Below, piece by piece: positions 20,857 through 41,812 of a stretch of 64,000 nucleotides of DNA; positions within the stretch are counted from its first letter, which is position 1; every line of letters begins with the position of its first letter. Source of the stretch: Cohaesibacter intestini. Lineage in GTDB: Bacteria > Pseudomonadota > Alphaproteobacteria > Rhizobiales > Cohaesibacteraceae. The stretch covers positions 744,001 through 808,000 of the forward strand of contig NZ_QODK01000003.1 of the NCBI RefSeq assembly GCF_003324485.1, written 5' to 3'. The position numbers were made by a program, and so were the translations under genes. The notes below the pieces were generated by a model, which saw only the letters and a list, made by a program, of their open reading frames with translations, did not search any database and had not been told where the DNA came from.

Positions 20857-20912
20857 GCAAAGACTGGCCTGCAATGACTGGCCTACAATGACTGGCATGC
20901 AATGTCAGGCCA
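20857..20912. repeat. Four-copy imperfect 14-bp tandem repeat
   Basis: Four head-to-tail units with consensus GCAATGACTGGCCT at 20857-20870, 20871-20884, 20885-20898 and 20899-20912; neighbouring units differ at one to five positions. The last unit includes the stop codon of the eryD-like gene (TCA at 20905 on the plus strand). It is too short and too few to be a CRISPR array. It probably arose by slippage; an effect on the mRNA 3' end is possible but unsupported. Confidence 0.7.
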
Positions 20913-21858: not shown

Positions 21859-22095
21859 CGGTCTATCCTTATGCATCTTCCCTCATGCTCCTGTCTCAAA
21901 GAGCAAAAGCCCTGCCGCCCATCCATCAAGGAAAGAGGCGGCATGACATCATCTTGTTTTGGGCATTGTTTCTTTATGCCCGATCATAGCGTCCCGCCGG
22001 ATTATGGAACAGTCTGCTTTCGGCTGGGGAGGTACAAAATGCCATGCCCAATTGGTCCCCTTGCAGTTAACACAAAGAAAACCTTGCATTCCACC

Positions 22096-23028: not shown

Positions 23029-23029
23029 A

Positions 23030-24553: not shown

Positions 24554-24608
24554 CTCGACTCCTAAACCAGTGCGCTTCACCGGTTGCTTCAATAATGTTG
24601 GTAAATCG

Positions 24609-26194: not shown

Positions 26195-26618
26195 TTTCTT
26201 CCTCCTCCCACAGCTCCCGGCGTAGCTCCTTTTGGATGAATCGAAAAACACTATGAAAAACATTCGTTTACAGCGTGCTTTTCGGCGGTGCCGCGAGGTG
26301 TGTATACAAACTTCATATCATAAAAAATCTTGCCTGTGTGAATTTTTTTGCAGACAAAGTATTTTATTTCATCTATTGTTGGATCGTCGCAACCGAGAAT
26401 TAACCGGTTTCGACATGTGCCGGGCAATGTGCTGTGGAGGGTGCATCCGGTGCAAAAAGGGGAGGAGTGGGTTCGCACATTTGCGCGCCGAGACAGTCAT
26501 GTCTTCACGCTCCAAAATTGGAATTTTGCCCAATGCTGAGGCCGTCACTCTGGTCTTGCATCAGGCATCTGTTTCGGCGGCATCTAGGATCTGTCGGATC
26601 AAGCGGGAGGAGCGTAGA
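26195..26618. promoter_or_regulatory. Divergent control region between eryA and the transporter operon
   Basis: About 420 bases between two divergent units, with an AT-rich stretch near 26310-26380. It must contain both promoters and presumably the site for the EryD-like repressor. I could not pick out a confident SorC-type inverted repeat by eye. The open frame that runs through it on the plus strand (from 26232) has no family resemblance and is cysteine-rich noise upstream of the gene at 26619. Confidence 0.45.
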
Positions 26619-27287
26619 ATGGCTGCAACCATAGCCAACGCCAAATCAAGACAGGGATCGACCCAAAGATCATCAAAAGGCTGGATGATCGCTTGTACCA
26701 TGCTGGTTGCATTGGTGGGTGCGATTGCCTTGGACACCAAAGTGGTCGTGATTGGCTCTGCTGAAGATGCGCGGCAGGAAGCCTTCAACCCGGACCGCTT
26801 CGGGCAACAAAATTTCCCGCGCATTCGAGATGCGGTCATTGCCAAGGCACCTGATGCCACCGATCTGGCAGCTGGCCTGAAGAGCGACAAGAAAGCGGCG
26901 GTCAAGGAATATGCCACAATGGCAGGGGCATTTCCTGTCTTGCCTGTCAAACTGTCTGGCGTTGCTGGCAAGGGCTCTTCAGGCATCTTCCCGGTTTTGG
27001 TTGAAGGCTTGCCAGAAGGCACCAAGGTGCGGGTCCAGACCGGCCCAGCCATCAATGGCACCGAGTTGCGCGACATTGTCGGCGACATCGAGTTCGGTCA
27101 GTTCAAAAACCAAATCGAATACCAGGATGCAGGCGCAGGCATCAATCGTGCCATGGCTGCTGACATCCTGTCTGACTTGGATCGTGGCAGTCTTGAAGGC
27201 AAGTCCATCGAGGTAATTGGAGCCTTCAAACTGATTAATCCGAAAAACTGGCTTGTGACTCCGGTAAGCCTGGAGGTCAAACCATGA
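26619..27287 (+). CDS. DUF2291 family protein of a polyol/sugar ABC operon
   Basis: 222-residue protein with one N-terminal membrane segment (residues about 22-40, WMIACTMLVALVGAIAL) and a periplasmic domain rich in beta structure (FPVLVEGLPEGTKVRVQTGP, FGQFKNQIEYQDAGAGINRAM). DUF2291 proteins are found almost only beside ribose-type ABC importers, often those for polyols or pentoses, but their role is unproven; an accessory to the permease or a receptor for the binding protein would fit. The start at 26619 has a GGGAGGAG site. Its TGA overlaps the ATG of the ATPase gene, so it belongs to the transporter unit. Confidence 0.85.
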   Translation: MAATIANAKSRQGSTQRSSKGWMIACTMLVALVGAIALDTKVVVIGSAEDARQEAFNPDRFGQQNFPRIRDAVIAKAPDATDLAAGLKSDKKAAVKEYATMAGAFPVLPVKLSGVAGKGSSGIFPVLVEGLPEGTKVRVQTGPAINGTELRDIVGDIEFGQFKNQIEYQDAGAGINRAMAADILSDLDRGSLEGKSIEVIGAFKLINPKNWLVTPVSLEVKP

Positions 27288-28843
27288 CCGCAGCAACGCC
27301 AATCGCAACAGCCAGCGCCGCACCAGAAGCCGTGCGCGCCGCAGGCAAGAGCGAAGTCGTGATGAAGGCGCGGAATATTTCCAAATCCTTCGGTGCTATC
27401 CACGCCCTGCGCAATGTGAATTTCGACGTCCATAAGGGCGAAGTGACCACCTTGTTCGGCGAAAATGGCGCAGGCAAATCGACCTTGATGAAGATCCTGT
27501 CCGGCGTCTTTCGGCCCACCTCGGGCGAGATCATCCTCAATGGCGAGGATGTCAGCTTCAGCTCGACGGTCGATGCGCGTGATATGGGGGTTTCGATCAT
27601 CCATCAGGAATTGTCGCTGGCTCCCAATATGAATGTGCGGGATAATATTTTCATTGGACGTGAAATCACTAGCCCGAAAGGCGTTGATTTTGCAGAAGAA
27701 GAGCGCCAGACCCGCGCCCTGATGGAAGAGTTGCAGGAAGATATCGACCCGCTAACCTTGGTTGGTGATCTGCGGCTTGGCCAGCAGCAGCTGGTAGAAA
27801 TTGCCCGCGCTTTGTCGGTCAATTCGCGCATTCTCATTATGGATGAGCCAACTTCGGCTTTGTCGGCCTCTGAAGTGGACGTGCTGTTTGAGGTGATCCG
27901 CGACTTGAAAGCTCGCGGCGTCTCCATCGTCTATATCTCCCACCATCTCGAAGAAGCCTTGCAGATCACCGAACATGCGGTGGTGCTGCGGGACGGCACC
28001 GTCACCGCCCGCGCCCCGCGCTCGGAAATCGATCTGGAATGGATCGTACGCAATATGGTCGGCGAGGGGTTCGATCTTGGCAGTCCGCCACTTGGCTATG
28101 AGTTTGGCGAGCCAGCCCTGCAGATCGAAAATCTAACCGTCCACACCAATGGCGGCGCCCGCCTGTCGGTAGACAATTTGTCGCTCGAAGTGAAACAAGG
28201 CGAGATTATCTGTATTTATGGCCTGATGGGCGCTGGACGCACGGAGTTGATGGAATGCATCGCCGGGCGGTTGCCAGAAACAGGTGGCCGGGTGCTGTTG
28301 CGCGAGGAAGATATGGCAGGCTTGCGTATCTCAGAGCGCATCGCGCGTGGTCTGGTGCTGGTGCCCGAAGACCGCCAGAAGGACGGATTGGTTCAAACCA
28401 TGACGGTTGGGCGCAACCTGTCGCTCGCGTCGATCCGCAATTTCAGCAGGAAGTTTTTCACCAACGTCAAGGACGAGTTGGAGATTATCGAACGGTCTAT
28501 CAAGGAAGTGACCATCAAGACCGATGGGCATCAGGCTGCGATCAGCTCCCTGTCCGGCGGCAATCAGCAAAAGGTCGTGATTGGCAAGATGCTAGCGACC
28601 CAGCCGGACGTGATCGTCCTCGACGAGCCGAGCCGCGGCATCGATATCGGCGCCAAGGCCGAGGTTTTCAAAATCCTGTCGGAACACGCCAGACAGGGCA
28701 TGGCTGTCATTTATTCCACCTCCGAGGTGGGCGAATGCCTCTCCATCGCTCATCGGATCATCGTCATGCGTCGGGGCAGGATCTCGGCAGAATTTGGCCA
28801 TGACACCACAAAAGAAGCAATCATGGCCGCTTCAGGCGAGTGA
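27284..28843 (+). CDS. Sugar/polyol ABC importer ATPase (double domain, RbsA type)
   Basis: Cytoplasmic energy subunit of 519 residues with two fused ABC domains. Domain 1 has Walker A GENGAGKST (59-67), signature-like LRLGQQQLVEIARAL, and Walker B ILIMDEPTSALS. Domain 2 has a degenerate P-loop GLMGAGRTE, a canonical signature LSGGNQQKVVIGKML and Walker B VIVLDEPSRGID, as usual for CUT2 transporters. It overlaps the DUF2291 gene by four bases. By context it energises uptake of erythritol or a related polyol, matching the eryEFG or mpt transport genes of Brucella and Sinorhizobium. Confidence 0.95.
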   Translation: MTAATPIATASAAPEAVRAAGKSEVVMKARNISKSFGAIHALRNVNFDVHKGEVTTLFGENGAGKSTLMKILSGVFRPTSGEIILNGEDVSFSSTVDARDMGVSIIHQELSLAPNMNVRDNIFIGREITSPKGVDFAEEERQTRALMEELQEDIDPLTLVGDLRLGQQQLVEIARALSVNSRILIMDEPTSALSASEVDVLFEVIRDLKARGVSIVYISHHLEEALQITEHAVVLRDGTVTARAPRSEIDLEWIVRNMVGEGFDLGSPPLGYEFGEPALQIENLTVHTNGGARLSVDNLSLEVKQGEIICIYGLMGAGRTELMECIAGRLPETGGRVLLREEDMAGLRISERIARGLVLVPEDRQKDGLVQTMTVGRNLSLASIRNFSRKFFTNVKDELEIIERSIKEVTIKTDGHQAAISSLSGGNQQKVVIGKMLATQPDVIVLDEPSRGIDIGAKAEVFKILSEHARQGMAVIYSTSEVGECLSIAHRIIVMRRGRISAEFGHDTTKEAIMAASGE

Positions 28844-28894
28844 CGACAACCCAACAATATGAATGGATTTAATGTGATGCAGGAAGCGACAACC

Positions 28895-29941
28895 ATGGCA
28901 GATCCGTCATCCACCAAAACCAGAGCGCCCGCCAAGCCCGGCAATGACTTCTCTCTGATCAGAATTTTGCTCGAAGGACGCGCCTTCTTCGCGTTGATTG
29001 TCATCATCGCAATCTTTTCCTTCCTGTCGCCCAATTATGCGACAATTTCCAACTTCCTGATCATGGCCAACCATGTCGCCATTTTCGGCCTGCTGGCCAT
29101 TGGCATGCTGCTGGTCATTCTGAATGGCGGGATTGATCTCTCGGTCGGCTCGGTGCTGGCCTTGTCCGGGGTCTTTGCGGGCTTTCTGATGCAGGGGATC
29201 GAGTTGGAATCCCTCGGCATTCTGATCTATTTCCCAGTCTGGGCCGTGGTCTTGATCACCATTGCGCTCGGGGCCTTTGTCGGCTCGATCAGCGGCGTCC
29301 TCATTGCCTATTTCAAGGTGCCTGCTTTCGTGTCCACACTCGGGACACTCTATGTGGCCCGTGGCGTGGCGCTCCTGATGACCAACGGTCTGACCTACAA
29401 CAATCTTTCGGGCCGTCCGGAATTTGGCAATACCGGCTTTGAATGGCTCGGCTTTAACCGCATTGCGGGTGTCCCGATCGGTGTCATCGTGTTGGCCGTG
29501 GTTGCCCTCGTTGTCAGCCTTGTACTGTCTCGTACCGCCTTTGGCCGCTGGCTTTATTCTTCGGGTGGCAACGCCCATGCCGCCGAGCTGGCTGGCGTGC
29601 CGGTCAAGCGGGTGCAGGTCATCGTCTATACCATTTCCGGGGCTTGTGCAGCGATAGCCGGGATCGTGCTCAGCTCGCAGCTGACGTCTGCAGGCCCAAC
29701 CGCAGGCTTCACCTATGAAATGATCGCCATTGCCGCCGTTGTCGTCGGCGGAGCCTCGCTGATGGGCGGTCTTGGCACCGTGCGCGGCACCATGCTTGGC
29801 GCCTTCGTCATCGGCTTCCTGTCCGACGGTCTCGTCATTATCGGCGTGTCTTCTTACTGGCAGACCGTCTTTACCGGCGCCGTCATCGTCCTCGCCGTGC
29901 TCATCAATTCCATCAAATATAGCGGCAGAGGCGCGCGATAA
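28895..29941 (+). CDS. Sugar/polyol ABC importer permease (RbsC type)
   Basis: Inner-membrane permease of 348 residues with eight to ten hydrophobic segments. The CUT2 hallmarks are LVILNGGIDLSVGSVLALSG, TLGTLYVARGVALLMTNG and the conserved loop SSGGNAHAAELAGVPVKRV. The ATG at 28895 is chosen because an AGGAAG site sits eight bases before it; two upstream ATGs (28859, 28877) lack one. It follows the ATPase gene by about 50 bases. Confidence 0.93.
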   Translation: MADPSSTKTRAPAKPGNDFSLIRILLEGRAFFALIVIIAIFSFLSPNYATISNFLIMANHVAIFGLLAIGMLLVILNGGIDLSVGSVLALSGVFAGFLMQGIELESLGILIYFPVWAVVLITIALGAFVGSISGVLIAYFKVPAFVSTLGTLYVARGVALLMTNGLTYNNLSGRPEFGNTGFEWLGFNRIAGVPIGVIVLAVVALVVSLVLSRTAFGRWLYSSGGNAHAAELAGVPVKRVQVIVYTISGACAAIAGIVLSSQLTSAGPTAGFTYEMIAIAAVVVGGASLMGGLGTVRGTMLGAFVIGFLSDGLVIIGVSSYWQTVFTGAVIVLAVLINSIKYSGRGAR

Positions 29942-30029
29942 CTTTCTTACTATTCACTGTTCCGCCTGGGAGGAGATCCAGGTGCAAAACCGCCTTAGTC
30001 AGGCGTTTAACCAAGGGGAGACTATTTCA

Positions 30030-30977
30030 ATGATCAAGTTCACCAAACAGATTCTGCTGGCAGCCGCCACCGCATTGCCTCTGATGGCAAGCCCGGTTCT
30101 GGCCAAAGATCTGATTTCCATCATCGTGACCGATCCGGCCAACCCATATTGGTTCACTGAAGGGGAAGTGGCAAAGGCGACCGCAGAAAAACTGGGTTAC
30201 GAAGCCAATGTCTCCGCGCACAAGGGTGACACGAACGTCGAATCCAACCTTGTGGATGCAGCCATCACCAACGGCGCCAAGGCCCTCATCCTTGATCCGG
30301 CCAACGCTGATGGCTCCGTCGGTGTGGTCAAAAAAGCCACCGCAGCAGGCATCCCGGTCTTTCTTGTGAATGCGGAAATCAACGAATCCGGCATCGCCAT
30401 CGCTCAGCTCGTGTCCAACAACGCACAAGGTGCTGCTCTGGGTGCGGTTGCTTGGCAGGAAATGGTCGGCGAAAAAGCCAACTATGTCGAGTTCTTCGGC
30501 AACCCTGCTGACAACAACGCGGCCACCCGTTCCAACGGCTACAACACGGTTTTGAGCCAATATCCTGATCTCAAAAAAGTGGCTGAAGAAGTGGCCAACT
30601 GGGACCGGACCCAAGGCTATAACAAAATGCAGTCGATCATTCAGGCCCATGACAATATCGAAGCCGTTATTTCCGGCAACGATGAAATGGCTCTGGGCGC
30701 CATTGCTGCTCTGAAAGAAGCAGGCAAGCTGGACGGCGTGATCGTCGGTGGTTTTGATGGATCGCCAGACGCAGTTGATGCCGTCAAATCCGGCGAACTG
30801 GCCTACACCGTTCTCCAGCCAGTTGCTGTCTTCTCTCGTGAAGCCGTTGAGCAGGCTGATTACTACATTAAGAATGGCAAAGCCAAAGTTGCCAACGAAA
30901 AGCAGCTGTTTGATTGCCTGCTGATCACCAAGGACAATGTGGCCAACTATACCGGTCCATTCGTCCTGTCTGAATAA
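30030..30977 (+). CDS. Sugar/polyol ABC importer periplasmic binding protein (RbsB type)
   Basis: Periplasmic receptor of 315 residues. The signal peptide (MIKFTKQILLAAATALPLMA, cleaved near VLA-KD) is followed by a type I periplasmic-binding fold: IIVTDPANPYWFTEGEVAKA, the hinge ALILDPANADGS, ISGNDEMALGAIAAL and GGFDGSPDAVDAV. The AAGGGGAG site fixes the start. Last gene of the importer operon, followed by a terminator. Placement opposite eryABCD points to erythritol or another polyol as ligand; binding specificity cannot be read from sequence. Confidence 0.93.
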   Translation: MIKFTKQILLAAATALPLMASPVLAKDLISIIVTDPANPYWFTEGEVAKATAEKLGYEANVSAHKGDTNVESNLVDAAITNGAKALILDPANADGSVGVVKKATAAGIPVFLVNAEINESGIAIAQLVSNNAQGAALGAVAWQEMVGEKANYVEFFGNPADNNAATRSNGYNTVLSQYPDLKKVAEEVANWDRTQGYNKMQSIIQAHDNIEAVISGNDEMALGAIAALKEAGKLDGVIVGGFDGSPDAVDAVKSGELAYTVLQPVAVFSREAVEQADYYIKNGKAKVANEKQLFDCLLITKDNVANYTGPFVLSE

Positions 30978-31042
30978 GCAACATTCGGACGTGTAAACTT
31001 GCGACCGGGTGGGGAACTTCCCGGTTGCATGCCCGCCCAAGG

Positions 31043-31086
31043 GCCCGCCCGATCCGCAATCCAGTCGCGGGTCGGGTGTTTTTTTG
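31043..31086 (+). terminator. Probable terminator of the importer operon
   Basis: GC-rich imperfect stem (CCCGCCC ... GGTCGGG with one mismatch) followed by GTTTTTTTG. Stem quality is moderate but the T-run is strong. Confidence 0.6.
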
Positions 31087-31315
31087 CCGCTGCATATACC
31101 GGGCTTGAAACTCTGAGGAAATGTGAGAAAGTCTGAAAATAACATTAAAAAATGAGACAATAACAAAAAGAGTTGATAACATTTAGATGAGCATCGTCAT
31201 GCGCCTGTGTCTGTCGCGCTGATTTTCAGCTGGCCGAAAACAAGGCCCGAGGCGAAGTCCGTGACAAAGATTGGCACAAATAGGCGCAAACCCTCTTTTC
31301 ACAGGAGTGGAATCC
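31087..31315 (+). promoter_or_regulatory. Upstream region of the second polyol kinase operon
   Basis: No gene seen. An AT-rich stretch holds two direct copies of ATAACATT (31139-31146 and 31176-31183) and a related CAATAACAA between them. These could be sites for the DeoR protein encoded in the same operon. Evidence is positional only. Confidence 0.35.
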
Positions 31316-32857
31316 ATGGCCTACCTTCTCGGAATAGACAACGGCCTGACCAACTCGAAGGCGGTTGTCTTTGATCTTGATGGAAACGCGATTGCCACGG
31401 CACGCCGCCGCATTGCCCAGCGCATGCCACAGCCCCATTTTGTTGAACGCGATATGGTCGAGCTTTGGCTGGCCACTGCGGGGGCGATCAAGGAGGCCCT
31501 TGAAAGCGCAGCCTGTCAGCCGTCTGAGATTTTGGCGGTAGGGGCGACCGCCCATGGCGATGGGCTTTATCTGCTTGACCATGATCAGCAGCCCTTGGGC
31601 AATGGCATCCTGTCGCTCGACAGTCGGGCCGGAGACATCGTTACGGACTGGCAACAGGGCGGAACAGACCGGGCCGCCTTGGAACTGTCCGGCCAATGTC
31701 CACACTTGTCCGCACCTGCGGCGCTTCTTGCATGGATCCGTCGTCACCAGCCGGAGCGTTTTGACAAAATAGGCAGCGTCATTGCCTGTAAGGACTGGCT
31801 GCGTTTTTGCCTCACCGGAACCGTTGGCACCGATCTGACCGAAGCCAGTATTTCCTTCACCGATCCACATAGTCAGGACTATCGCGGGGACATTTTGACC
31901 CTTTACGGGCTGGAAAGTCTGTCCGGTGCCCTGCCAGACATTGCACTTCCAGACGAGATCGTTGGATATGTAACAGACGAGGCAGCCATGGTGACGGGTC
32001 TTGCCAGAGGCACGCCCGTGGTTGCGGGGCTGCATGATGTCACTGCGTCTGCCCTTGGGGCTGGTGGATATGGGGTGGGGAGCGTGGCCATTGTTGCTGG
32101 CACATACTCGATCAATGAAACCGTCTCAAACGCACCCAAGATCGATCCGCGATGGTTTTGTCGCAACGGCATCCGGCGCGGGGAATGGAACAATATGGCC
32201 ATCTCACCGGCATCTGCGGCCAATTATGATTGGGTCCTCGATACATTCTGCCAGCAGGAAAAGGCCCAACATGGCGAGGCCTTGCATATCATGATCGCCG
32301 CTGAGCTTGAGACCGCACGCGATAACGCCTCCGCCATCCTGTTCCATCCCTATCTGTTTGGCTCTCCCCATGGTCCGGGCAGTTCGGCAGGCTTTCTGGG
32401 ATTGCACGGCTGGCACGGGCGTGGTGATGTGCTCCGCGCCCTTATGGAAGGCATTGCCTTCAATCATCGCCTCCATTGCGATGCCTTGCGGGAAGGCTTT
32501 TCGCCCACGATCGCCCGACTGACCGGCGGCATTTCGCGCAATCCGGTCTATGCCCAACTCTTTGCCGATGCACTCGCTATGAAGGTCTCTGTTTCCGACG
32601 TGGACGAACCTGCTGCATGGGGGGCTGCTCTTTGTGCGGGCAGCGGAGCGGGGCTCTTTGCTTCTCCCACACATGATCCGCGCGCCGACGCTGGCTCCGA
32701 TCAAATCGCTATCTATGACCCCAATCCCATCCACCGCCAGCAGCTTGACACGCTTTATGCTTTGCATTGCGAGGCCTCGGAAGCCTTGCGTCCGATCTGG
32801 CAAAAGCTTGAAGACCTGTCCCAATCCATGGCTGCCAGCAAAGGAGTCGCGCAATGA
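31316..32857 (+). CDS. Second FGGY-family carbohydrate kinase
   Basis: 513-residue FGGY kinase. It has the ATP motif GIDNGLTNSKAVVFD (6-20), a substrate region ATAHGDGLYLLDHDQQPLGN, and the adenosine motif LTGGISRNPVYAQLF. It is only distantly like the eryA product and is closer in feel to L-xylulose/ribulokinase-type members. The AGGAGTGG site fixes the start. Its stop overlaps the DeoR gene start (ATGA), and that gene in turn overlaps an FAD polyol-phosphate dehydrogenase, so the three form one coupled unit. The likely job is phosphorylation of a polyol or ketose whose phosphate is then oxidised; the substrate is unknown. Confidence 0.9.
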   Translation: MAYLLGIDNGLTNSKAVVFDLDGNAIATARRRIAQRMPQPHFVERDMVELWLATAGAIKEALESAACQPSEILAVGATAHGDGLYLLDHDQQPLGNGILSLDSRAGDIVTDWQQGGTDRAALELSGQCPHLSAPAALLAWIRRHQPERFDKIGSVIACKDWLRFCLTGTVGTDLTEASISFTDPHSQDYRGDILTLYGLESLSGALPDIALPDEIVGYVTDEAAMVTGLARGTPVVAGLHDVTASALGAGGYGVGSVAIVAGTYSINETVSNAPKIDPRWFCRNGIRRGEWNNMAISPASAANYDWVLDTFCQQEKAQHGEALHIMIAAELETARDNASAILFHPYLFGSPHGPGSSAGFLGLHGWHGRGDVLRALMEGIAFNHRLHCDALREGFSPTIARLTGGISRNPVYAQLFADALAMKVSVSDVDEPAAWGAALCAGSGAGLFASPTHDPRADAGSDQIAIYDPNPIHRQQLDTLYALHCEASEALRPIWQKLEDLSQSMAASKGVAQ

Positions 32858-33621
32858 AGCCAAGAGAACGCAAAGATGCCATTGCTGCCTATGTGATGGA
32901 ACAGGGCGACGTGCGGATTGATGATCTGGTCGAGCGCTTTGACGTCTCGCGCATGACCATCCTTCGCCATGTTGACGCCTTGGCCGCCCAAGGGGTGCTG
33001 CGCAAACTGCATGGATCGGTCACTGCCCAGCCATCCAGTGTCTATGAAAGCCTGTTCGCCTTTCGTCAGACCCAGAATACCGAAGAGAAGTCGGCGCTTG
33101 CCAAGGTTGCCGTTGAGGAAATCGAACCGGGGCAGGTGGTGTTTATCGACGAGAGCACCACAGCGAGCGCGATAGCGCCACTGTTGGAGGCCAAGTTGCC
33201 CGTGAAACTGGTCACCAACAGTCTGGGTCTAGCCAATATGGCCGTCGAGATCGAGGACGTGTCACTCTTGTTGGTAGGGGGCGACTATCACCCCACCTAC
33301 AATGCCTTTATCGGTCATGTCTGCGAAAGCGCCATCGCGGCTTTGCGTGGCAATCTGTTTCTGTGCTCAGCTTCGGCGGTCAATGAAGGCTGCGCTTTCA
33401 TTCAGGATCCGCAAATTATCCGGGTCAAACAGGCCATGTTTCGCGCCGCGCAAAGGCGGGTTCTAATGGTGGATTCCTCCAAGTTCGACAAGGTCGCACT
33501 GCATCATTTCGCGAGCCTGGATGATTTTGATCTGGTGTTGGTGGATGCGGCGGTGCCTTCCGCGACATTGGAGGCGCTGACCGCAATGAATGTCCCACTT
33601 AAACAGGTATCGAAGCGATGA
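32854..33621 (+). CDS. DeoR-family transcriptional regulator (first of two)
   Basis: 255-residue repressor with an N-terminal DeoR HTH (DVRIDDLVERFDVSRMTILRHVDALAAQGVLRKLHGS) and a C-terminal sugar-phosphate sensor domain (VVFIDESTTASAIAPLL, LVTNSLGLANMAVE, LLLVGGDYHPTYNAF, LMVDSSKFDK). It sits between the kinase and dehydrogenase genes with four-base overlaps on both sides, so it is made in step with them and most likely controls them in response to a phosphorylated intermediate. Confidence 0.93.
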   Translation: MKPRERKDAIAAYVMEQGDVRIDDLVERFDVSRMTILRHVDALAAQGVLRKLHGSVTAQPSSVYESLFAFRQTQNTEEKSALAKVAVEEIEPGQVVFIDESTTASAIAPLLEAKLPVKLVTNSLGLANMAVEIEDVSLLLVGGDYHPTYNAFIGHVCESAIAALRGNLFLCSASAVNEGCAFIQDPQIIRVKQAMFRAAQRRVLMVDSSKFDKVALHHFASLDDFDLVLVDAAVPSATLEALTAMNVPLKQVSKR

Positions 33622-35315
33622 CCAAGGAATGCAATGCCAAGCCGGTTGATGTGCTGATTGTCGGGGCCGGGATCAATGGGGCGGGACTGTTTCGCGATTT
33701 GTGCCTGCAGGGCGTCTCGACGGTGTTGATCGACAAGGGCGACTATGGCTCCGGTACCTCGGCAGCCCCCTCGCGACTCATCCATGGCGGCATCAAATAT
33801 CTCGAAACCGGCGAATTGCGCCTTGTTGCCCAGTCGACCCTTGAGCGCAATCTGCTGCTCAAAAACGCGCCCCATGCAGTGAAACCATTGCCAACCATCA
33901 TCCCGATCTTCTCATGGTTCAATGGCGTATCAGCCGCTTTGCGCACCTTGTTCGGCTCTGTCACGGCCCCCAGAAGCCGCGGCGCATTGCTGATCGAGAT
34001 TGGTCTCATCCTCTATGATCTTTATGGTGCGCGGGACCGGGTCATGCCGCGCCATCGCTTCTGGACCAAGGCCAAGGCCTTGGCGGAAATGCCCTTTCTC
34101 ACGCCGCGGATCGTTGCGGCTGGCACCTATCACGACGCCATGGTGTGTGTTCCGGAGCGTTTGGTGCTCGAATTGGTCAAGGATGGACTTGCCACCGCTC
34201 CGCAATCCGAAGCGCACACCTACACTAGCCTTGAGCAAAGCCAAGGCGACATCGTGACGGTCTGCCATGAAGATGGCACACGGCAGACCTATCGTCCCAG
34301 AATTCTGATCAACGCTGCAGGGCCCTGGATTGATCGGGTCAACGGGCTTTTGGGGTTCGAGACGAAACTGATTGGCGGCACAAAAGGCTCGCACATTATC
34401 ATTGATAGTCCAGAACTGGTCGCCGCCCTCAAGGGGCGTATGGTCTATTATGAAGCCGATGATGGCCGCATCTGTTTGGTCTTTGACTATCATGGCCGTG
34501 CTCTGGTTGGCTCGACGGATGTCTTTGCTGATGATCCGGATAAAGTGCGTTGCGAAGACGACGAAATCGCCTATTTTCTGGAGAGTCTTTCTGGTCTGCT
34601 GCCCGACCTGAAACTGGAGCGCAGCCAGATCGTCTATTGTTATTCCGGCATTCGGCCATTACCAGCGGCCGACAACACAGAGGCAGGTCTCGTCAGTCGA
34701 GATCATTCTTCCCCGCGTCACGCACCCGATGAAATGCGTCCCTATCCGGTCATTTCCCTTGTTGGTGGCAAATGGACAACCTTCCGAGGATTTGCTGAAG
34801 AGGTTTGTAATCGGTTGCTCGGTGAGTTGGGCCTAGAGCGACAAATTTCGACACGCGCTGCTCCGATCGGTGGAGGGGTCAATTATCCGCAGAGTGATCA
34901 CGACAAGGCCAATTGGTTGAAACAGCAGAGGCAACTGCATGCGGTCAGCGAAACGCGGGCATGGCTATTGTTCGAGCGGTATGGCACGACCGCGAGCCAG
35001 ATCATTGCGCTCGAGGCGTCCGGTTATCGGCTGATCAATGGCACTCGCGACCATTCTGACGTTGAAATTGACTGGATTGTTCGTAACGAAGGTGTCTGCC
35101 ACGTGATGGACATACTGGTCCGCCGCACCTTGATCGGCGTTGATGGATCGCTGACGATCAACGCCCTTGATGACATTGCGCGCATTTGCGGGAACGCGCT
35201 GGGTTGGAGTGATGCCCGTATCCAGTCAGAAATCGATGATGCAGCGAGACAGTTGGCTGAGCGGCATCGGGTCACAATTTCCTCTGAAGGGTCCGGCTAT
35301 GCCCCACTAGGATGA
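33618..35315 (+). CDS. FAD-dependent polyol-phosphate dehydrogenase (GlpD family), second copy
   Basis: 565-residue flavoprotein of the glycerol-3-phosphate dehydrogenase family. FAD motif GAGINGAGLFRDLCLQGV starts near residue 14, followed by SAAPSRLIHGGIKYLETGE. The conserved CYSGIRPLPAADN and GGKWTTFRGFAEEV are present, as is a C-terminal helical cap. It is about 60 residues longer than the EryB-like protein and clearly divergent from it. Coupled by ATGA to the DeoR gene. It could be a genuine glycerol-3-phosphate dehydrogenase or act on the product of the adjoining kinase; the coupling favours the latter. Confidence 0.9.
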   Translation: MTKECNAKPVDVLIVGAGINGAGLFRDLCLQGVSTVLIDKGDYGSGTSAAPSRLIHGGIKYLETGELRLVAQSTLERNLLLKNAPHAVKPLPTIIPIFSWFNGVSAALRTLFGSVTAPRSRGALLIEIGLILYDLYGARDRVMPRHRFWTKAKALAEMPFLTPRIVAAGTYHDAMVCVPERLVLELVKDGLATAPQSEAHTYTSLEQSQGDIVTVCHEDGTRQTYRPRILINAAGPWIDRVNGLLGFETKLIGGTKGSHIIIDSPELVAALKGRMVYYEADDGRICLVFDYHGRALVGSTDVFADDPDKVRCEDDEIAYFLESLSGLLPDLKLERSQIVYCYSGIRPLPAADNTEAGLVSRDHSSPRHAPDEMRPYPVISLVGGKWTTFRGFAEEVCNRLLGELGLERQISTRAAPIGGGVNYPQSDHDKANWLKQQRQLHAVSETRAWLLFERYGTTASQIIALEASGYRLINGTRDHSDVEIDWIVRNEGVCHVMDILVRRTLIGVDGSLTINALDDIARICGNALGWSDARIQSEIDDAARQLAERHRVTISSEGSGYAPLG

Positions 35316-35374: not shown

Positions 35375-35554
35375 CCTGCCTTGTTGCACACTCATATCGA
35401 TAATTGGCTCCTGTGGGCAGGGGGCGTTCATCGCGCAGGATGACCCTTGCATGTAGGGGCGCTGTGGCTATGGTGAGATCAGACTCAGGCGTGGTTGATA
35501 TGCATGATCCTTGCATCTTCAAAGCATGTTTGGTTGAAAAATATCACGAATAAA

Positions 35555-35600
35555 AATCACAAAATAACACAAAATTATTGATTTTGAGATGTTATGTGTT
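35555..35600 (+). promoter_or_regulatory. Candidate DeoR/EryR operator upstream of eryR-tpiA2
   Basis: AT-rich block with ATCACAAAA (35556-35564), AACACAAAAT (35566-35575) and TGATTTTGAG (35579-35588), followed by GTTATGTGTTACA. The same three words in the same order recur between rpiB and tkt (38127-38171). It lies 44 to 90 bases before the DeoR-type gene. The link to that regulator is inferred from the shared words and position. The rest of the roughly 330-base gap holds no gene. Confidence 0.5.
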
Positions 35601-35643: not shown

Positions 35644-36408
35644 GTGAGAGGCGAAGACCGTAGACAATTCATTATGGATCTCCTCGTGGAGCACAGGGCC
35701 GTCGATATTGATGACCTTGCCCAGAGATTCAGCGTGTCGAAAATGACCATTCACCGGGATCTGGACGAGCTTGAACAGAGCGGTGTCTTGCGGAAAGTGC
35801 GTGGCGGGGCGACGGCTGATGCCGGCAACCAGTTCGAAAGCGATTTTCGCATTCGCGCTCGGCAGGATGCCGATGCCAAAAACCGGATGGCTGAAGAGGC
35901 TCTCAAGCTGATCGAACCGGGCATGACGGTGATGATCAATGATGGCTCGATGTCAGCTGTTTTGGGCTCAATGCTGAGCCAGAAGCGACCTCTCACTGTC
36001 ATTACCAACAATCAGGCCATCATCAGCGCCCTGCTGGGCGAGGTTGGTATTACATTGTTGGTTCTGGGCGGGATCTATTCAGCCAAGTTCAACGCCTATA
36101 GCGGTGTGGTGACCGAAGAGACACTTCAGCGGTTGCGGGCCGATATTGCTTTTATTTCTGCACCGGCAGTCTCGGGGCTGCAGGCATTTCATATGGATGA
36201 CAACATTGTGCGGGCCAAGCAGGCGATGATGCAGGCCGCCACCCGCAAATGTCTGCTGGTAAACCATTCCCGTTTCAATCGCACAGCGCTTCACGTTTTG
36301 TCGGATCTCAGGAGTTTCGACTGGATCATCACCGATGGTGAGCCCGATGCTAACGTGTCCGAAGAGCTCAAAGGGGCGGGATTAACCCTCACTGTTGCAA
36401 GGACTTAA
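35644..36408 (+). CDS. eryR: DeoR-family regulator, EryR-like
   Basis: 254-residue DeoR repressor. HTH: AVDIDDLAQRFSVSKMTIHRDLDELEQSGVLRKVRGG. Sensor domain: VMINDGSMSAVLGSML, VITNNQAIISALL, LLVLGGIYSAKFNAYSG, CLLVNHSRFNRTALH. The start is GTG at 35644 with a GGAGGTG site. tpiA2 follows after three bases. The same eryR-tpiA2-rpiB grouping belongs to the Brucella/Sinorhizobium erythritol locus, where the DeoR protein is named EryR. It is only loosely similar to the DeoR protein at 32854-33621, so the two probably answer different effectors. Confidence 0.88.
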   Translation: MRGEDRRQFIMDLLVEHRAVDIDDLAQRFSVSKMTIHRDLDELEQSGVLRKVRGGATADAGNQFESDFRIRARQDADAKNRMAEEALKLIEPGMTVMINDGSMSAVLGSMLSQKRPLTVITNNQAIISALLGEVGITLLVLGGIYSAKFNAYSGVVTEETLQRLRADIAFISAPAVSGLQAFHMDDNIVRAKQAMMQAATRKCLLVNHSRFNRTALHVLSDLRSFDWIITDGEPDANVSEELKGAGLTLTVART

Positions 36409-36411
36409 CCC

Positions 36412-37188
36412 ATGACTGTCACCCCTCGTTTCTGGATCGGCACAAGCTGGAAGATGAACAAGACGCTGGCCGAAGCCGTCACCTTTGCAGAAGGTCTGAA
36501 GGCAGCGGACGCCAGCCGTGATCCGCGTATCCAGCGCTTTGTCATTCCGCCGTTCACCGCTGTGCGCGAAGTCAAGGCCATGTTGTCGGACAGTTCGGTC
36601 AAGGTCGGTGCGCAGAATATGCATTGGGATGATGCCGGCGCTTGGACGGGGGAAGTCTCGCCCTTGATGCTCACCGACTGCAATCTTGATATTGTCGAAC
36701 TGGGACATTCCGAGCGGCGGGAATTTTTTGGTGAAACCAATGAGACGGTCGGCCTCAAAACCGAAGCGGCTGTCCGTCACGGTCTAACCCCCTTGATCTG
36801 CATCGGTGAAACCTTGGCAGACAAGGAAGCGGGAAAAGCGGCAGACGTGCTGGCTGAAGAAGTGCGTGGCGCGTTGGGCAAACTGAGTGGCGAACAAAAA
36901 GAATCCCAGATCCTTTTGGCTTACGAACCCGTCTGGGCCATTGGGGTGAATGGCATTCCGGCCAGCGCAGACTATGCCGACGCGCGGCAGGCCGAAATTC
37001 TCGATGTGGCCGAGGAAATGCTGGGCTATCGCCCGCTTTGCCTCTATGGCGGCTCAGTCAATCCGGGCAATTGTGAAGAGCTGATTTCCTGCCCGAATAT
37101 TGACGGTCTGTTCATCGGACGGTCCGCATGGCATGTCGAGGGCTATCTCGATATCCTGACCAAATGCTCTGCCAAGTTAGACGCTTAA
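36412..37188 (+). CDS. tpiA2: Triose-phosphate-isomerase homologue of erythritol breakdown (EryH/TpiA2)
   Basis: TIM-barrel isomerase of 258 residues. Catalytic H99 (ELGHSERR) and E172 (YEPVWAIG) and K14 are kept. Canonical TpiA has Asn two positions before the lysine (G-N-W-K-M-N); here the segment is GTSWKMNK, placing Ser12 at that point. The second phosphate loop reads FIGRSAW instead of the usual VGGASL. These changes are those I recall for the erythritol-locus paralogue, EryH, which converts D-3-tetrulose-4-phosphate to D-erythrulose-4-phosphate in Brucella. It is not the glycolytic enzyme, whose gene is elsewhere. It is cotranscribed with eryR. Confidence 0.9.
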   Translation: MTVTPRFWIGTSWKMNKTLAEAVTFAEGLKAADASRDPRIQRFVIPPFTAVREVKAMLSDSSVKVGAQNMHWDDAGAWTGEVSPLMLTDCNLDIVELGHSERREFFGETNETVGLKTEAAVRHGLTPLICIGETLADKEAGKAADVLAEEVRGALGKLSGEQKESQILLAYEPVWAIGVNGIPASADYADARQAEILDVAEEMLGYRPLCLYGGSVNPGNCEELISCPNIDGLFIGRSAWHVEGYLDILTKCSAKLDA

Positions 37189-37466: not shown

Positions 37467-37922
37467 TCAAGCTTGATTATACTTTGCGTCAACCGCATCG
37501 ATCGCGGCAACGTTGCTCGCAGAGCGACCTTCTGGATCAAAGCTCTCTTTGAGGAATGTGTCGGCAATCGTCTTGGCGACTTCAGCACCGATGACCCGTG
37601 CGCCCATAGTGATGATCTGCGCATTGTTCGACAGGGCGGCGCGCTCTGCGGAATAGGTGTCATGGGTGAGAGCGGCACGAATGCCCGGAACCTTGTTGGC
37701 AGCAATGCACACGCCGATCCCCGTGCCGCACACCAGAATGGCGCGGTCATAGGTGCCATCAATCACTTTGGAGGCAACCCGGTCGGACAGGTTGGCATAA
37801 AAGGCGTCTGGTCCGTCTTCGGTGCGCGAAATCTCTGACACGTCGTAAGAATCCTTGAGATGTTCGGCCAGAATCTTGGCGAGGCCTTCTCCGGCGCTGT
37901 CGCCTGCAATTGCAATTTTCAT
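37467..37922 (-). CDS. rpiB: RpiB-family sugar-phosphate isomerase (EryI-like)
   Basis: Isomerase of 151 residues, the normal RpiB/LacAB length. Catalytic Cys65 is in [15 protein letters not shown]; the phosphate-binding and helix region [13 protein letters not shown] is conserved; the N terminus [13 protein letters not shown] is typical of the Brucella-type paralogue rather than the E. coli enzyme. EryI turns D-erythrulose-4-phosphate into D-erythrose-4-phosphate, the last special step of erythritol use. GGGAAGGAAG site sets the start. It is transcribed away from transketolase from a shared control region. An RpiA is also encoded at 44611, which supports a specialised job here. Confidence 0.92.
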
Positions 37923-38125
37923 GATGGCTTCCTTCCCTGAGACATTGGCCCTGAGGCTCCAAATCAAGTGGTTCAAACATGATGAACCTTAAAACGACAC
38001 CGGTCGCTGACCGGCGGGTCATTGTTGCTGATCTCCGCGGATGGTTGTCTGGGGCGCTTTGCTTGGTGCGCGGCACCGGTTCGCCCATCCGTTTGAGTAG
38101 CTTGTGACTCTTTTTAACGCCGAAA

Positions 38126-38237
38126 CATCACAAAAACAACACAAAATATGTGATTGAGTTGTGATTTTGAGGGAATTGTCGCCAATAAATCACATAATTC
38201 TTTAAGATTTGTGATTTTCAGTTGTGATTATGTGATG
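38126..38237. promoter_or_regulatory. Candidate operator cluster between rpiB and tkt
   Basis: AT-rich block inside the 351-base divergent region (37923-38273), which holds no gene. It contains ATCACAAAA (38127-38135), AACACAAAAT (38138-38147) and TGATTTTGAG (38162-38171), in the same order as at 35556-35588. There are three direct TTGTGATT copies (38159, 38209, 38222) and a perfect inverted repeat ATCACATAAT / ATTATGTGAT (38189-38198 and 38227-38236). A DeoR-type regulator is the best candidate ligand. Confidence 0.55.
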
Positions 38238-38273
38238 TTTGGTGTAGGTAAGGGGCCATAGGAGGACAGTGTG

Positions 38274-40283
38274 ATGATCAGTGACCCATTCATTGCCAGC
38301 AAAGAGAAGCTGGCTCCCGAGAATTTTGCACTCGCCAACTGCATTCGCGCACTTTCGATCGACGCAGTCAATGCCGCCAATTCGGGCCATCCAGGCGCAC
38401 CGATGGGCATGGCAGATGCGGCGACCGTGTTGTTTCGCAATCATCTGAAATTCGATGCATCCCAACCCAACTGGCCGGATCGGGACCGCTTTGTGCTGTC
38501 CAATGGCCATGCATCCATGATGCTTTATTCGTTGCTGCATCTGACCGGCTACGAAGACATGACCATTGAGGAAATTCGCAATTTCCGCCAGTGGGGATCC
38601 AAGACGGCAGGTCACCCGGAATATGGTCACGCGCAGGGCGTTGAAACCACTACCGGCCCGCTGGGGCAGGGCATTGCCACTGCTGTTGGTATGGCCATGT
38701 CCGAGCGTCTTCTGGCCGAGGAATTTCCGGGTCTGGTTGATCACAACACCTATGTCATGCTCGGCGACGGTTGCTTGCAGGAAGGCATTGGTCAGGAAGC
38801 CATCAGCCTTGCCGGCCATCTGGGCCTGGGCAAACTGATCGTGCTTTATGATGACAATGACATCACCATCGACGGTCCGACTTCGATTTCCTTTTCTGAA
38901 AATATTCCCGGTCGCTTCGAAGCTTGCGGCTGGCATGTGCAATCCTGCGATGGCCACGACGCCAATGCCATCGATGCAGCCCTTTCTGCTGCCAAGGCGG
39001 TGACAGACAAGCCTTCGATGATCGCCATGAAAACCGTCATTGGTTTTGGGTCTCCCAACCGGGCTGGTACGGCTGGCGCGCATGGTGCACCACTTGGGGC
39101 CGAAGAGGGCGAAGCTGCCAAACAGGCGCTTGGCTGGACGGCTGAGCCGTTCGAAATTCCGTCCGATCTCGCCCAAGACTGGCGCGCCATCGGAGCCAAA
39201 GGCCAGACCGCCCGCATGGATTGGGAAACGGCACTTTCCGAGCATCCGCAAGCGAATGATTTCATTCGGCGCCAAGCCACACATTTGCCGCAAGCCTACG
39301 AAACCGCTTTGTCAGACGCGCGCGCCGCGCTCTTTGCTGAACCAGCCAAGGTCGCGACCCGAAAGGCGTCGCAAATGGCGCTTGAAGCCTTGGCAGGGTC
39401 TCTGCCAGAGCTGGTCGGCGGCTCTGCGGATTTGACCGGCTCGAACCTCACCCGTGTCCCTGCGGTCGATAGCCAGTTTACCCGCGAAAAACCCGGCCGT
39501 TACATCGGCTATGGCGTGCGAGAATTCGCCATGTCTGCGGCGATGAATGGCATGGCGCTGCATCGGGGCTTCATCCCTTACGGCGGCACCTTTCTGGTTT
39601 TCAGTGACTATGCCCGCAATGCCATCCGCCTATCAGCTTTGATGGGCATTGGCACGATCTACGTCATGACCCATGACAGCATCGGCCTCGGTGAAGATGG
39701 CCCGACCCACCAACCGGTCGAGCATATGGCAAGCTTGCGGGTCATTCCGGGGCTTCAGGTCTTCCGCCCGTGCGATGCGATGGAAACGCTGGAATGCTGG
39801 GACATTGCCATCCGCTCGCGCACCACGCCAAGCCTGATGGCTCTGTCCCGTCAGGGCGTGCCACAGCTGCGCACCGAGGCTGGCGATGAAAATCTCACCG
39901 CCAAGGGGGCTTATGTTCTGCGGCACTATGGTGAGGGCCGCGACGTGACCCTGATCGCCACCGGCACCGAAGTGATGCTGGCGGTTGAAGCGGCTGAAAA
40001 GCTGCATGCGGACGGTCTCAGCGTGGCGGTTGTCTCCATGCCTTGCTGGGAATTGTTCGACGCCCAGCCACAAACCTATCGCGATGATGTGCTGGGCACC
40101 GCGCCGCGCATTGCCATTGAGGCGGCCAGCAAGTTTGGTTGGACCCGCTATGTGGCAAGCGAAGATGATGTGATCGGAATGGATGGCTTTGGTGCTTCGG
40201 CACCAGCTGAGCGCCTCTACGAGGAGTTTGGCATCACGTCTGACGCCATCATTGCCCGCGCTCGCACACTCTGCGGTAAATAA
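38274..40283 (+). CDS. tkt: Transketolase
   Basis: Thiamine-diphosphate enzyme of 669 residues that moves two-carbon units between sugar phosphates. N-terminal [15 protein letters not shown], the ThDP motif from [16 protein letters not shown] to the following LYDDN, the proton-relay glutamate in GYGVREFAM, and [15 protein letters not shown] are all present. AGGAGG is eight bases before the ATG at 38274; the GTG one codon earlier is less likely. It begins next to rpiB on the opposite strand. Its product route uses erythrose-4-phosphate with xylulose-5-phosphate, so it is the natural exit of the erythritol pathway. It may be a dedicated paralogue beside a separate housekeeping copy. Confidence 0.96.
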
Positions 40284-40356: not shown

Positions 40357-41013
40357 ATGGCCCAGATCGTGTTTGATCTTGATGGAACGTTGATCGACAG
40401 CGCTCCGGATTTGCAGGCGGTTGCCAACAAGGTGCTGGCGGACGAAGGCAAGCATCCTGTGTCACTGGCACAAGTCAGTGCATTTCTCGGATGCGGAACG
40501 CCCACCTTCGTCCAAAGAATGTGTGAAGCATCGGGCATTTCTCAAAGCGAACATAAACGCCTGTTGGCAAACTTTCGTGCGCTCTATGACGGGGCGGTGC
40601 ATCACACCAAGCCTTATCCCGGTGTTCGCGACGCTTTGCATCAATTGGCCTCAGACGGGCACCAACTGGGAATCTGCACCAACAAGCCGATGAGCCCATG
40701 TCTGTCTGTCCTGCGTCATTTGCAGCTCGATCCGCACTTTGACTCCATATTGGGCGGCGATAGCTTGCCGGTTCATAAGCCCGATCCGGCCCCTTTGTTT
40801 GCCACCTTTGATGCGTTGGGCAATGGGGATCGCATCTATGTCGGCGACAGCGAAGTTGATGCCGAAACCGCGCGACGGGCAGGAGTGCCGTTTCTGCTCT
40901 ATACCGAGGGCTATCGCAAACAGGCGATTGAGGAAATGCCGCACACCGCAACCTTTACCCATTTTGACGAACTGCCCGGGCTCATCACCCAGACTCTGGC
41001 ATCCATTCACTAG
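40357..41013 (+). CDS. HAD-family phosphatase, phosphoglycolate-phosphatase-like
   Basis: 218-residue haloacid-dehalogenase hydrolase. Motif I is DLDGTLIDSAPD (residues 7-18), motif II lies in GICTNKPMSP, the lysine is in HKPDPAPLF, and motif IV is YVGDSEVDAETA. The N-terminal cap insertion is of the Gph type. GGAAAGGAC site sets the start; it follows transketolase by 73 bases and precedes transaldolase, so it is probably cotranscribed. Removal of a toxic phosphate side product of the pathway is an attractive role, but the substrate is not known. A related protein is encoded at 43515-44189. Confidence 0.88.
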   Translation: MAQIVFDLDGTLIDSAPDLQAVANKVLADEGKHPVSLAQVSAFLGCGTPTFVQRMCEASGISQSEHKRLLANFRALYDGAVHHTKPYPGVRDALHQLASDGHQLGICTNKPMSPCLSVLRHLQLDPHFDSILGGDSLPVHKPDPAPLFATFDALGNGDRIYVGDSEVDAETARRAGVPFLLYTEGYRKQAIEEMPHTATFTHFDELPGLITQTLASIH

Positions 41014-41158: not shown

Positions 41159-41812
41159 ATGAAATTCTTTGTCGATACCGCAATCATCGAAGATATCCGT
41201 GAACTGAATGATTATGGCCTGCTTGATGGCGTGACCACCAATCCTTCGTTGATCGCCAAATCTGGCCGTGACTTCAAGGAAGTGATCGCTGAAATCTGCG
41301 CGTTGGTCGAAGGCCCGGTTTCCGCCGAAGTGGCCGCCCTCAATTTTGACGGCATGGTCGCCGAAGGTGAGCATCTGGCAGGCATTGCCGACAATGTGGT
41401 GATCAAGCTGCCCTTGACTTTGGATGGCCTGAAGGCTTGCCGCCACTTCACCATGAAAGGCATCAAGACCAACGTTACCCTGTGCTTCAGTGCCAACCAG
41501 GCTTTGCTTGCTGCCAAGGCTGGCGCCACCTTCATCAGCCCGTTCGTCGGTCGTCTTGATGACCTCAATATTGAGGGTATGGAGCTGATCAGCGATATTC
41601 GTCAAATCTACGACAATTATGACTTCAAGACCGAAATCCTGGCCGCTTCGGTCCGAACCGCCAACCATGTCAAGGATGCTGCTTTGGCCGGTGCCGATGT
41701 TGCCACCATTCCGCCTGCGGTCATCAAAGGACTGGCAGGCCACGTGCTGACCGACAAGGGGCTTGACCAGTTCGCCAAGGACTGGGCATCCACCGGCCAA
41801 TCAATCCTCTGA
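41159..41812 (+). CDS. tal: Transaldolase, short TalC type
   Basis: 217-residue TIM-barrel aldolase of the TalC/fructose-6-phosphate-aldolase subfamily. Schiff-base lysine K83 is in VVIKLPLT. Two positions separate true transaldolases from aldolases: Glu57 (SAEVAA) and Phe129 ([10 protein letters not shown]) are both of the transaldolase kind, whereas the E. coli aldolase has Gln and Tyr. So the enzyme most likely moves a dihydroxyacetone unit between fructose-6-phosphate and erythrose-4-phosphate. TGGAGGAATGAG site before the ATG. It closes the tkt-HAD-tal unit and is followed by a strong terminator. Confidence 0.94.

Follow-up and report, generated by a model that had tools for sequence, protein, structure and literature searches.

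A kinase-dehydrogenase pair in the erythritol locus of Cohaesibacter intestini as a candidate accessory branch for a second polyol, possibly L-threitol

A 64,000-nucleotide stretch of Cohaesibacter intestini (assembly GCF_003324485.1, contig NZ_QODK01000003.1, positions 744,001 to 808,000 of the forward strand; here called the window) contains an erythritol catabolic locus in which three additional genes lie between eryG and eryR-eryH, encoding an FGGY kinase (designated KIN2), a DeoR-family regulator and a dehydrogenase of the GlpD family (designated GlpD2) (Table 1). The locus itself is complete, since the whole Rhizobium leguminosarum-type set (eryABCD, eryEFG and eryR-tpiB-rpiB; PMC3599248) is present, with rpiB on the opposite strand. 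The preliminary description of this DNA, made from the letters and translations alone, had placed the three genes exactly as to coordinates, strand and joins, the latter being ATGA overlaps of KIN2 with the DeoR gene at 32854-32857 and of the DeoR gene with GlpD2 at 33618-33621. Its designation of a second kinase-DeoR-dehydrogenase triplet has to be corrected, because the first set consists of eryA-eryB-eryC with eryD, whose domain is Sugar-bind (PF04198). The KIN2-GlpD2 pair recurs in erythritol loci as an accessory, and its possible role as a separate substrate branch is considered here.

KIN2 matches both domains of the FGGY family (FGGY_N, PF00370, 182.8 bits; FGGY_C, PF02782, 82.9 bits), the catalytic Asp (Asp241) is kept in all 83 KIN2 sequences, and the best PDB matches of its AlphaFold model (mean pLDDT 85.7) are FGGY kinases. 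The FAD domain and GlpD fold of GlpD2 were recognized both by domain profiles and by its model (mean pLDDT 84.6), whose fold matches in PDB are E. coli GlpD and alpha-glycerophosphate oxidase. Both models were built from 20-row alignments of the window sequence and relatives on genome contigs.

Table 1. Genes and signals of the triplet and of the surrounding erythritol locus (positions in the window)
Feature	Position	Strand	Domains and remarks
KIN2, FGGY carbohydrate kinase, predicted tetritol (L-threitol?) kinase	31316-32857	+	513 aa; PF00370 + PF02782
DeoR-family regulator, presumed repressor of the triplet	32854-33621	+	255 aa; DeoR/GlpR models, below equivalog cut-offs
GlpD2, FAD-dependent polyol-phosphate dehydrogenase (predicted), GlpD fold	33618-35315	+	565 aa; PF01266 (DAO) + PF16901 (DAO_C)
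Probable intrinsic terminator between eryG and KIN2	31046-31085	+	12-pair stem, 9-nt loop, T tract
Tandem 21-nt direct repeat upstream of KIN2, candidate DeoR operator	31128-31169	+	copies 71% identical; weak by itself
eryD, regulator with Sugar-bind domain	20905-21876	-	PF04198
eryC, TIM-barrel erythrulose-1-phosphate epimerase	22096-23082	-	PF01261
eryB, erythritol-phosphate dehydrogenase (GlpD family)	23030-24676	-	
eryA, erythritol kinase	24609-26150	-	
ORF (open reading frame) with DUF2291 lipoprotein heading the eryEFG operon	26232-27287	+	PF10054, residues 158-348; true start probably downstream
eryE, sugar ABC transporter ATPase	27284-28843	+	
eryF, permease	28859-29941	+	
eryG, substrate-binding protein	30027-30977	+	start approximate
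eryR, second DeoR-family regulator	35644-36408	+	
eryH (tpiB), TIM-family isomerase, L-erythrulose-1-phosphate to D-erythrulose-4-phosphate (by analogy)	36412-37188	+	triose-phosphate isomerase models
eryI (rpiB), D-erythrulose-4-phosphate isomerase	37467-37922	-	NF051858; PF02502
Transketolase (tkt), first gene of pentose-phosphate block	38271-40283	+	
HAD hydrolase, pentose-phosphate block	40357-41013		
Transaldolase-like gene, pentose-phosphate block	41159-41812		
GntR-like regulator, pentose-phosphate block	42241-42900		label from translation only
rpiA, pentose-phosphate block	44611-45309		

The linkage of the pair to erythritol genes was evaluated in a scan of one genome per species, which gave 495 coding relatives, the best 80 of them being kept as loci. 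Both eryA and eryG lie beside the pair in 71 of these loci and eryG without eryA in one more (72 in total), while neither is found in eight; KIN2 stands downstream of eryG on the same strand in 67 of the 72 eryG-linked loci. The recurrent core consists of kinase and dehydrogenase, the DeoR gene being located between them in 23/80 loci. Other members of the pathway are recovered less often: eryC (68-83% identical) in 17 of the 80 loci and in two of five further ones, the fetched stretch often ending before this gene, EryH of 67-70% identity in three of the 80, and a TIM-family gene 30-38% identical to EryH in seven of the 80, one of which (L100) has no ery genes nearby. No gene family is common downstream of GlpD2, the most frequent being present in at most 13 of 85 loci.

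Among the eight unlinked loci full 10-kb flanks are available only in two (L061 and L077), most of the others standing on short contigs and being possibly linked; the flanks of L061 gave no match to EryE, EryF or EryG and those of L077 a single ATPase match of 29%. Eleven genomes, namely seven of the eight in which the sequence fetched around the pair lacks ery genes (L094 was left out) and four linked ones, were tested for the pathway as a whole, and all 11 encode EryA (53-70%) and EryH (70-81%). The pair is situated beside eryEFG on plasmids of R. johnstonii 3841, Paracoccus seriniphilus, Pararhizobium qamdonense and Shinella, and a plasmid of Paracoccus sp. AK26 carries a bare pair, the gene table, which is incomplete, listing no sugar importer within 10 kb.

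The association was also assessed within one genus, in 101 genomes of the group of Paracoccus lichenicola. Here the dehydrogenases were divided into ery-type (E 1e-260 or better) and sister-type (E 1e-167 to 1e-178), a split of the analyst's own, the limit of the search being 1e-100; the sister clade comprises the nearest relatives found of both enzymes (37-40% identity), which are also paired. The ery-type GlpD2 was present in 20/101 genomes and eryA in all 20 of those (Fisher p 2.4e-11, which is optimistic as the species share ancestry). In the whole sample eryA was detected in 37 genomes, 17 of them without the pair, and no genome had the pair without eryA; in 8 of the 20 genomes with the pair it was placed on a different contig from eryA, some of these contigs being short. 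The sister-type dehydrogenase was found in six genomes, of which three had eryA, so that no link is seen (p 0.67). This asymmetry, in which the pair never occurs without ery genes and ery genes often occur without the pair, is informative together with the sister-clade control. A class-wide sample was unfit for the association test, because its 8/289 positive genomes were the own genome and seven sister-type matches (38-46%). Thus the earlier proposal that a second polyol shares the importer and/or isomerases of the locus gains support from eryG beside the pair in 72/80 loci, from eryA in 20/20 Paracoccus genomes, and from eryA with eryH in 7/7 tested genomes where the pair lies elsewhere.

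The triplet looks like a transcription unit of its own, since a terminator precedes KIN2, the triplet has its own DeoR gene, and a motif recurs upstream in relatives. The terminator region (31020-31100) has a computed fold of -35.8 kcal/mol (z -2.85); the hairpin with its 9-nt loop was not listed by the consensus terminator scan, which allows loops of 3-8 only. Beyond the hairpin the stretch between eryG and KIN2 is AT-rich and holds the weak tandem repeat. A TTGACGTTAA-type motif (TTGACGT) is located upstream of KIN2 in all nine relatives examined (9/10 sequences counting the window), the set being restricted to loci whose only DeoR gene separates kinase and dehydrogenase (L012 and 8 of the 23 genome loci with a DeoR gene in that place). 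An operator shared by the DeoR proteins of the locus was sought with TTGTGATTTT, which occurs exactly at 35553, 38159 and 38209, upstream of eryR and tkt, and with at most one mismatch gives 13 matches against 5.5 expected, a number reached in one of 100 shuffles; it is not present upstream of KIN2, where only the tandem repeat was found. The TTGTGATTTT-like boxes at 35553-35562 and 38124-38231 are a candidate operator of EryR, which would connect eryRH with the pentose-phosphate block.

In the own genus the ery-type pair occurs in 2/18 genomes, that of the window and one other (G300). In the latter (L176, C1:645001-665000) eryR, eryH, eryI, tkt, HAD, transaldolase, GntR, a second HAD and rpiA were matched in full length at 82-96%, and the remnants adjoin a fumarase gene 93% identical to window 19293-20762; the surrounding 35 kb gave no eryC, eryD, eryE, eryF or eryG, and eryA-G are not nearby. 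KIN2 of this genome has lost its first 120 residues, GlpD2 its first 218 residues, and the DeoR gene between them is missing, the remaining pieces being broken and 76-77% identical. As the ery genes are gone and the pair is broken, the loss of importer and catabolic genes was accompanied by decay of the pair; however, a deletion removing part of KIN2 would cause such decay anyway. In the window two unrelated fumarases, of class I type (-) and class II type (+), are arranged back to back at 17369-20762, just upstream of the ery locus.

The isomerases are distributed more widely than the kinase. EryH was detected in 12 of the 18 own-genus genomes and EryA (at least 46%) in two, so that EryH has uses beyond erythritol. 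In three of ten further own-genus genomes (L180, L185 and L186) the neighbours of the EryH gene encode an ABC sugar transporter, a fused DhaK-DhaL-type kinase and an EryD-like regulator, with EryI and tkt also present in two of the three; in the other seven no EryH cluster with transporter, regulator and dihydroxyacetone-kinase-type gene was seen. The cluster of these three genomes is in itself a candidate erythrulose (LerK-like) pathway without eryA, LerK of Mycolicibacterium smegmatis being a member of the dihydroxyacetone-kinase-type family. A homologous gene of this type (38-42% identity) directly follows GlpD2 in 3/85 loci, all of them rhizobial (L013, L079 and L103; Shinella and Peteryoungia), and stands further from GlpD2 in two Paracoccus loci. 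These EryH clusters and post-GlpD2 genes with a dihydroxyacetone-kinase-type kinase hint at EryH and EryI as a hub with interchangeable entries. For EryI the assignment comes from the curated D-erythrulose-4-phosphate isomerase model (NF051858, 254.7 bits against a cut-off of 240), and thus the isomerase needed for an erythrulose-phosphate tetritol pathway is present in the window; the role of EryH is assigned by analogy with LerI (PMC10733421).

The relation of the pair to known enzymes was addressed through the five specificity positions of glycerol kinase (Arg83, Glu84, Tyr135, Asp245 and Phe270; PMC3245297). The pocket signature at these positions, two columns of which depend on the alignment, is GDSDI in 80/83 KIN2 sequences including that of the window, GDCDV in 65/71 EryA, GN(S/A)DI in all seven sister-clade kinases, and REYDF in the own GlpK. 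The G-D pair replacing Arg83-Glu84 is common to KIN2 and EryA, though their clades are separate, and at the position of Glu84 all 83 KIN2 sequences have D82 versus N in the sister clade (7/7). KIN2 scored 119.5 bits with the GlpK equivalog TIGR01311 (cut-off 590.35), and GlpD2 263.1 and 230.5 bits with the GlpD equivalogs NF008899 and NF009906 (cut-offs 360 and 352, respectively). In the dehydrogenase His259, Arg346, Arg361 and Lys385 are invariant in 86/86 GlpD2 and common to EryB and GlpD, residue 60 is Lys in 86/86 GlpD2 versus Arg in EryB (21/21), the sister clade (6/6) and the own GlpD, and a 19-residue insertion at residues 97-115 is present also in the sister clade; residues 60, 259, 346, 361 and 385 are presumably E. 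coli GlpD active-site positions.

The enzymes are also distant from EryA and EryB, with 25.3% aligned identity of KIN2 to EryA and 27.1% of GlpD2 to EryB, which bears out their earlier characterization as clearly divergent. In the kinase tree (15/83 KIN2, 13/71 EryA, seven sister kinases and ten own paralogs) KIN2 and EryA form separate clades; only the KIN2 plus sister clade and the EryA clade were used from it, because the own-paralog branches are very long and row L026_own is apparently a wrong-frame translation. The dehydrogenase tree, built from 15/86 GlpD2, 11/21 EryB, six sister sequences and the own GlpD, joins EryB to this GlpD and places GlpD2 beside the sister clade, with a warning of the program about long branches. 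Recent duplication of eryA/eryB was rejected on the low identity and the trees.

It is probable that the pair feeds a second acyclic polyol into the ery isomerases, and the best explanation of the data is that the triplet would form an accessory branch of the erythritol locus under its own regulation, with L-threitol as its most likely substrate; the probability of this explanation is estimated at about 0.5. L-threitol itself is a tentative choice, for which somewhat less than even odds are given. In sn-glycerol-3-phosphate the carbon oxidised by GlpD is the neighbour of the one that bears the phosphate, and with the phosphate drawn at the top its hydroxyl stands to the right; D-erythritol-1-phosphate, the substrate of EryB, has the same arrangement at the oxidised carbon. 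L-threitol-1-phosphate would be the sole threitol phosphate with this configuration, and its oxidation would give L-erythrulose-1-phosphate, the predicted substrate of EryH, and L-threitol is favoured on these two grounds. It would be the only tetritol besides erythritol that fits, provided that GlpD2 keeps the geometry of GlpD despite Lys60 and the insertion.

In the proposed pathway EryEFG would import the second tetritol, KIN2 would phosphorylate its terminal carbon, and GlpD2 would oxidise the neighbouring secondary alcohol with transfer of electrons to FAD and presumably quinone, giving erythrulose-1-phosphate. This product would be converted to D-erythrose-4-phosphate by EryH and EryI, after EryC if it were the D form, and would enter the adjacent transketolase/transaldolase block, while the DeoR protein might repress the triplet until a pathway phosphate appears. 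Here every reaction, the importer, the stereochemistry and the ligand of the regulator are predicted from gene order, families, pocket signatures, phylogeny and genome association. The downstream part follows PMC10733421, in which EryC is described as converting D- to L-erythrulose-1-phosphate, LerI as converting the latter to D-erythrulose-4-phosphate and DerI as yielding D-erythrose-4-phosphate, and L-threitol is led to L-erythrulose-1-phosphate by EltD and LerK. A more specific and still more tentative version is a phosphorylate-first L-threitol pathway, in which KIN2 would be an FGGY threitol kinase and GlpD2 a quinone-linked L-threitol-1-phosphate dehydrogenase feeding EryH and bypassing EryB/EryC, so that one isomerase hub might serve exchangeable entries (EryABC, KIN2-GlpD2 and, in some sister species, dihydroxyacetone-kinase-type genes).

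D-threitol is an unlikely substrate that would draw on the same genomic evidence as L-threitol: the pair would give D-erythrulose-1-phosphate and EryC would be required before EryH, an extra step which is available in the window and in the 17/80 loci with eryC; however, judged from Fischer projections, the configuration of D-threitol-1-phosphate at the oxidised carbon would be opposite to that of GlpD and EryB substrates.

A pentitol branch, in which ketopentose-1-phosphate made by the pair from ribitol, arabitol or xylitol would be cleaved by an aldolase, is likewise doubtful. It agrees with the gene clusters of the sister clade, where the relatives of both enzymes are accompanied by an aldo-keto reductase and a DeoC/LacD-type aldolase, as a ketose-1-phosphate route needs, with the handling of ribitol and L-arabitol by related S. 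meliloti loci (PMC3599248), and with class II fba-type genes in 5/85 loci, next to GlpD2 in two (L009 and L091) and beyond eryH in three (L044, L045 and L063), two more loci (L042 and L099) having a class II aldolase-type match. The other 78/85 loci gave no match to five aldolase queries, fba beside rpiB was already known from ery loci in PMC3599248 without reference to pentitols, and the D82 of KIN2 differs from the sister-clade N. In the same source an R. leguminosarum ery cosmid did not restore growth of S. meliloti mutants on ribitol or L-arabitol, the presence of the pair on the cosmid not being stated there. In L009 and L091, both Rhizobium ery loci, the class II fructose-bisphosphate-aldolase-type gene is convergent with GlpD2. 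As to the sister clade, its cluster (L167, L168, L171, L172, L174 and L175) includes an ABC transporter, a SorC-type/EryD-like regulator, an aldo-keto reductase, GlpD2-like and KIN2-like proteins and a DeoC-type aldolase, with parts varying by locus and only three of the proteins domain-scanned, and it may be a polyol pathway of its own.

Association with ery genomes and a shared importer would equally suit a second route for erythritol, either by phosphorylation at the other end, where oxidation would give L-erythrulose-1-phosphate without EryC, or as spare EryA/EryB for other conditions. Such a route is quite improbable, since phosphorylation at the other end would need the configuration opposite to that of GlpD, the triplet has a separate regulator and a terminator in front of KIN2, and the pair is missing from 17/37 eryA genomes.

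An ordinary glycerol kinase with glycerol-3-phosphate dehydrogenase was rejected as very improbable despite the GlpD fold and the annotation of the dehydrogenase as glycerol-3-phosphate dehydrogenase/oxidase in the records examined, because of the pocket signature, the curated scores and the separate glycerol genes in this genome, where one of the three full GlpD-like proteins (GlpD2, EryB and the one at C3:863619-865055) adjoins the kinase with the best FGGY_N score and the REYDF signature (C3:862-865 kb). KIN2 and GlpD2 are thus probably not glycerol enzymes. The preliminary description had offered threitol, a pentitol or glycerol as examples of the substrate, and its list narrows to a tetritol, presumably L-threitol first, with glycerol unlikely.

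Several points weigh against the accessory-branch explanation. Most characterised FGGY kinases use ketoses or other sugars and not polyols. In the window the TTGACGTTAA-type motif is missing upstream of KIN2, unlike in the nine relatives, and the sigma-70 consensus promoter scan (two found in total versus 3.0 expected) gave none ahead of KIN2 on the + strand. The uses of EryH beyond erythritol are explained only in part, the genome association may be partly due to shared descent or habitat, and the fba-type genes in 5/85 loci indicate that an aldolase route may operate in some loci. The stereochemistry of GlpD2 could differ owing to Lys in place of Arg at a presumed active-site position and to the insertion. 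Finally, according to PMC3599248 the R. leguminosarum-type locus is not expected to degrade further polyols.

No description of the KIN2-GlpD2 pair was found in the literature searched, a mention in Barbier 2014, Yost 2006 or Huang 2015 being possible, and none of the papers searched has an FGGY threitol kinase function; nine FGGY functions are listed in PMC3245297. The database record of the R. leguminosarum ery locus has DeoR, kinase and dehydrogenase genes after eryG, which the Results and Discussion of Geddes 2013 (PMC3599248), where the ery genes are listed, do not mention. Erythritol loci are model catabolic operons, and the pair, which has no name, is found in many of those of Rhizobiales and Rhodobacterales. 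Both enzymes belong to known families, while the accessory branch and the predicted phosphorylate-first threitol route would be new. If correct, this would amend the glycerol-3-phosphate annotations of the dehydrogenase, extend the two C4-polyol routes named in PMC12780249 by another one, and provide ready enzymes for threitol and erythrulose-phosphate biochemistry.

In comparison with known systems, the triplet shares with GlpK/GlpD the families, the fold and the predicted reaction order, and differs in pocket signature, in the curated scores and in the existence of separate glycerol copies in the genome. The sister clade, nearest in sequence and also paired, differs by the aldolase, by the lack of ery catabolic genes in the fetched stretches, by N in the pocket and by Arg instead of Lys60. 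EryA and EryB represent the same combination of FGGY kinase and GlpD-family dehydrogenase in the same locus, which phosphorylate and then oxidise, yet KIN2 and GlpD2 are separated from them by aligned identities of 25% and 27%, by clade, by pocket signature and by Lys60 in place of Arg. The L-threitol, D-threitol and erythritol pathways of M. smegmatis (EltD, LerK, LerI and DerI) would have common intermediates with the triplet pathway, namely L-erythrulose-1-phosphate, D-erythrulose-4-phosphate and D-erythrose-4-phosphate (PMC10733421, PMC12780249). Their oxidise-first order is not that of the triplet, whose enzymes are a kinase of the FGGY family and one of GlpD fold, EltD/LerK relatives elsewhere in the genome not having been searched for. 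In M. smegmatis oxidation of the alcohol precedes phosphorylation of the ketose, whereas the triplet would phosphorylate first and use FAD/quinone as the oxidant.

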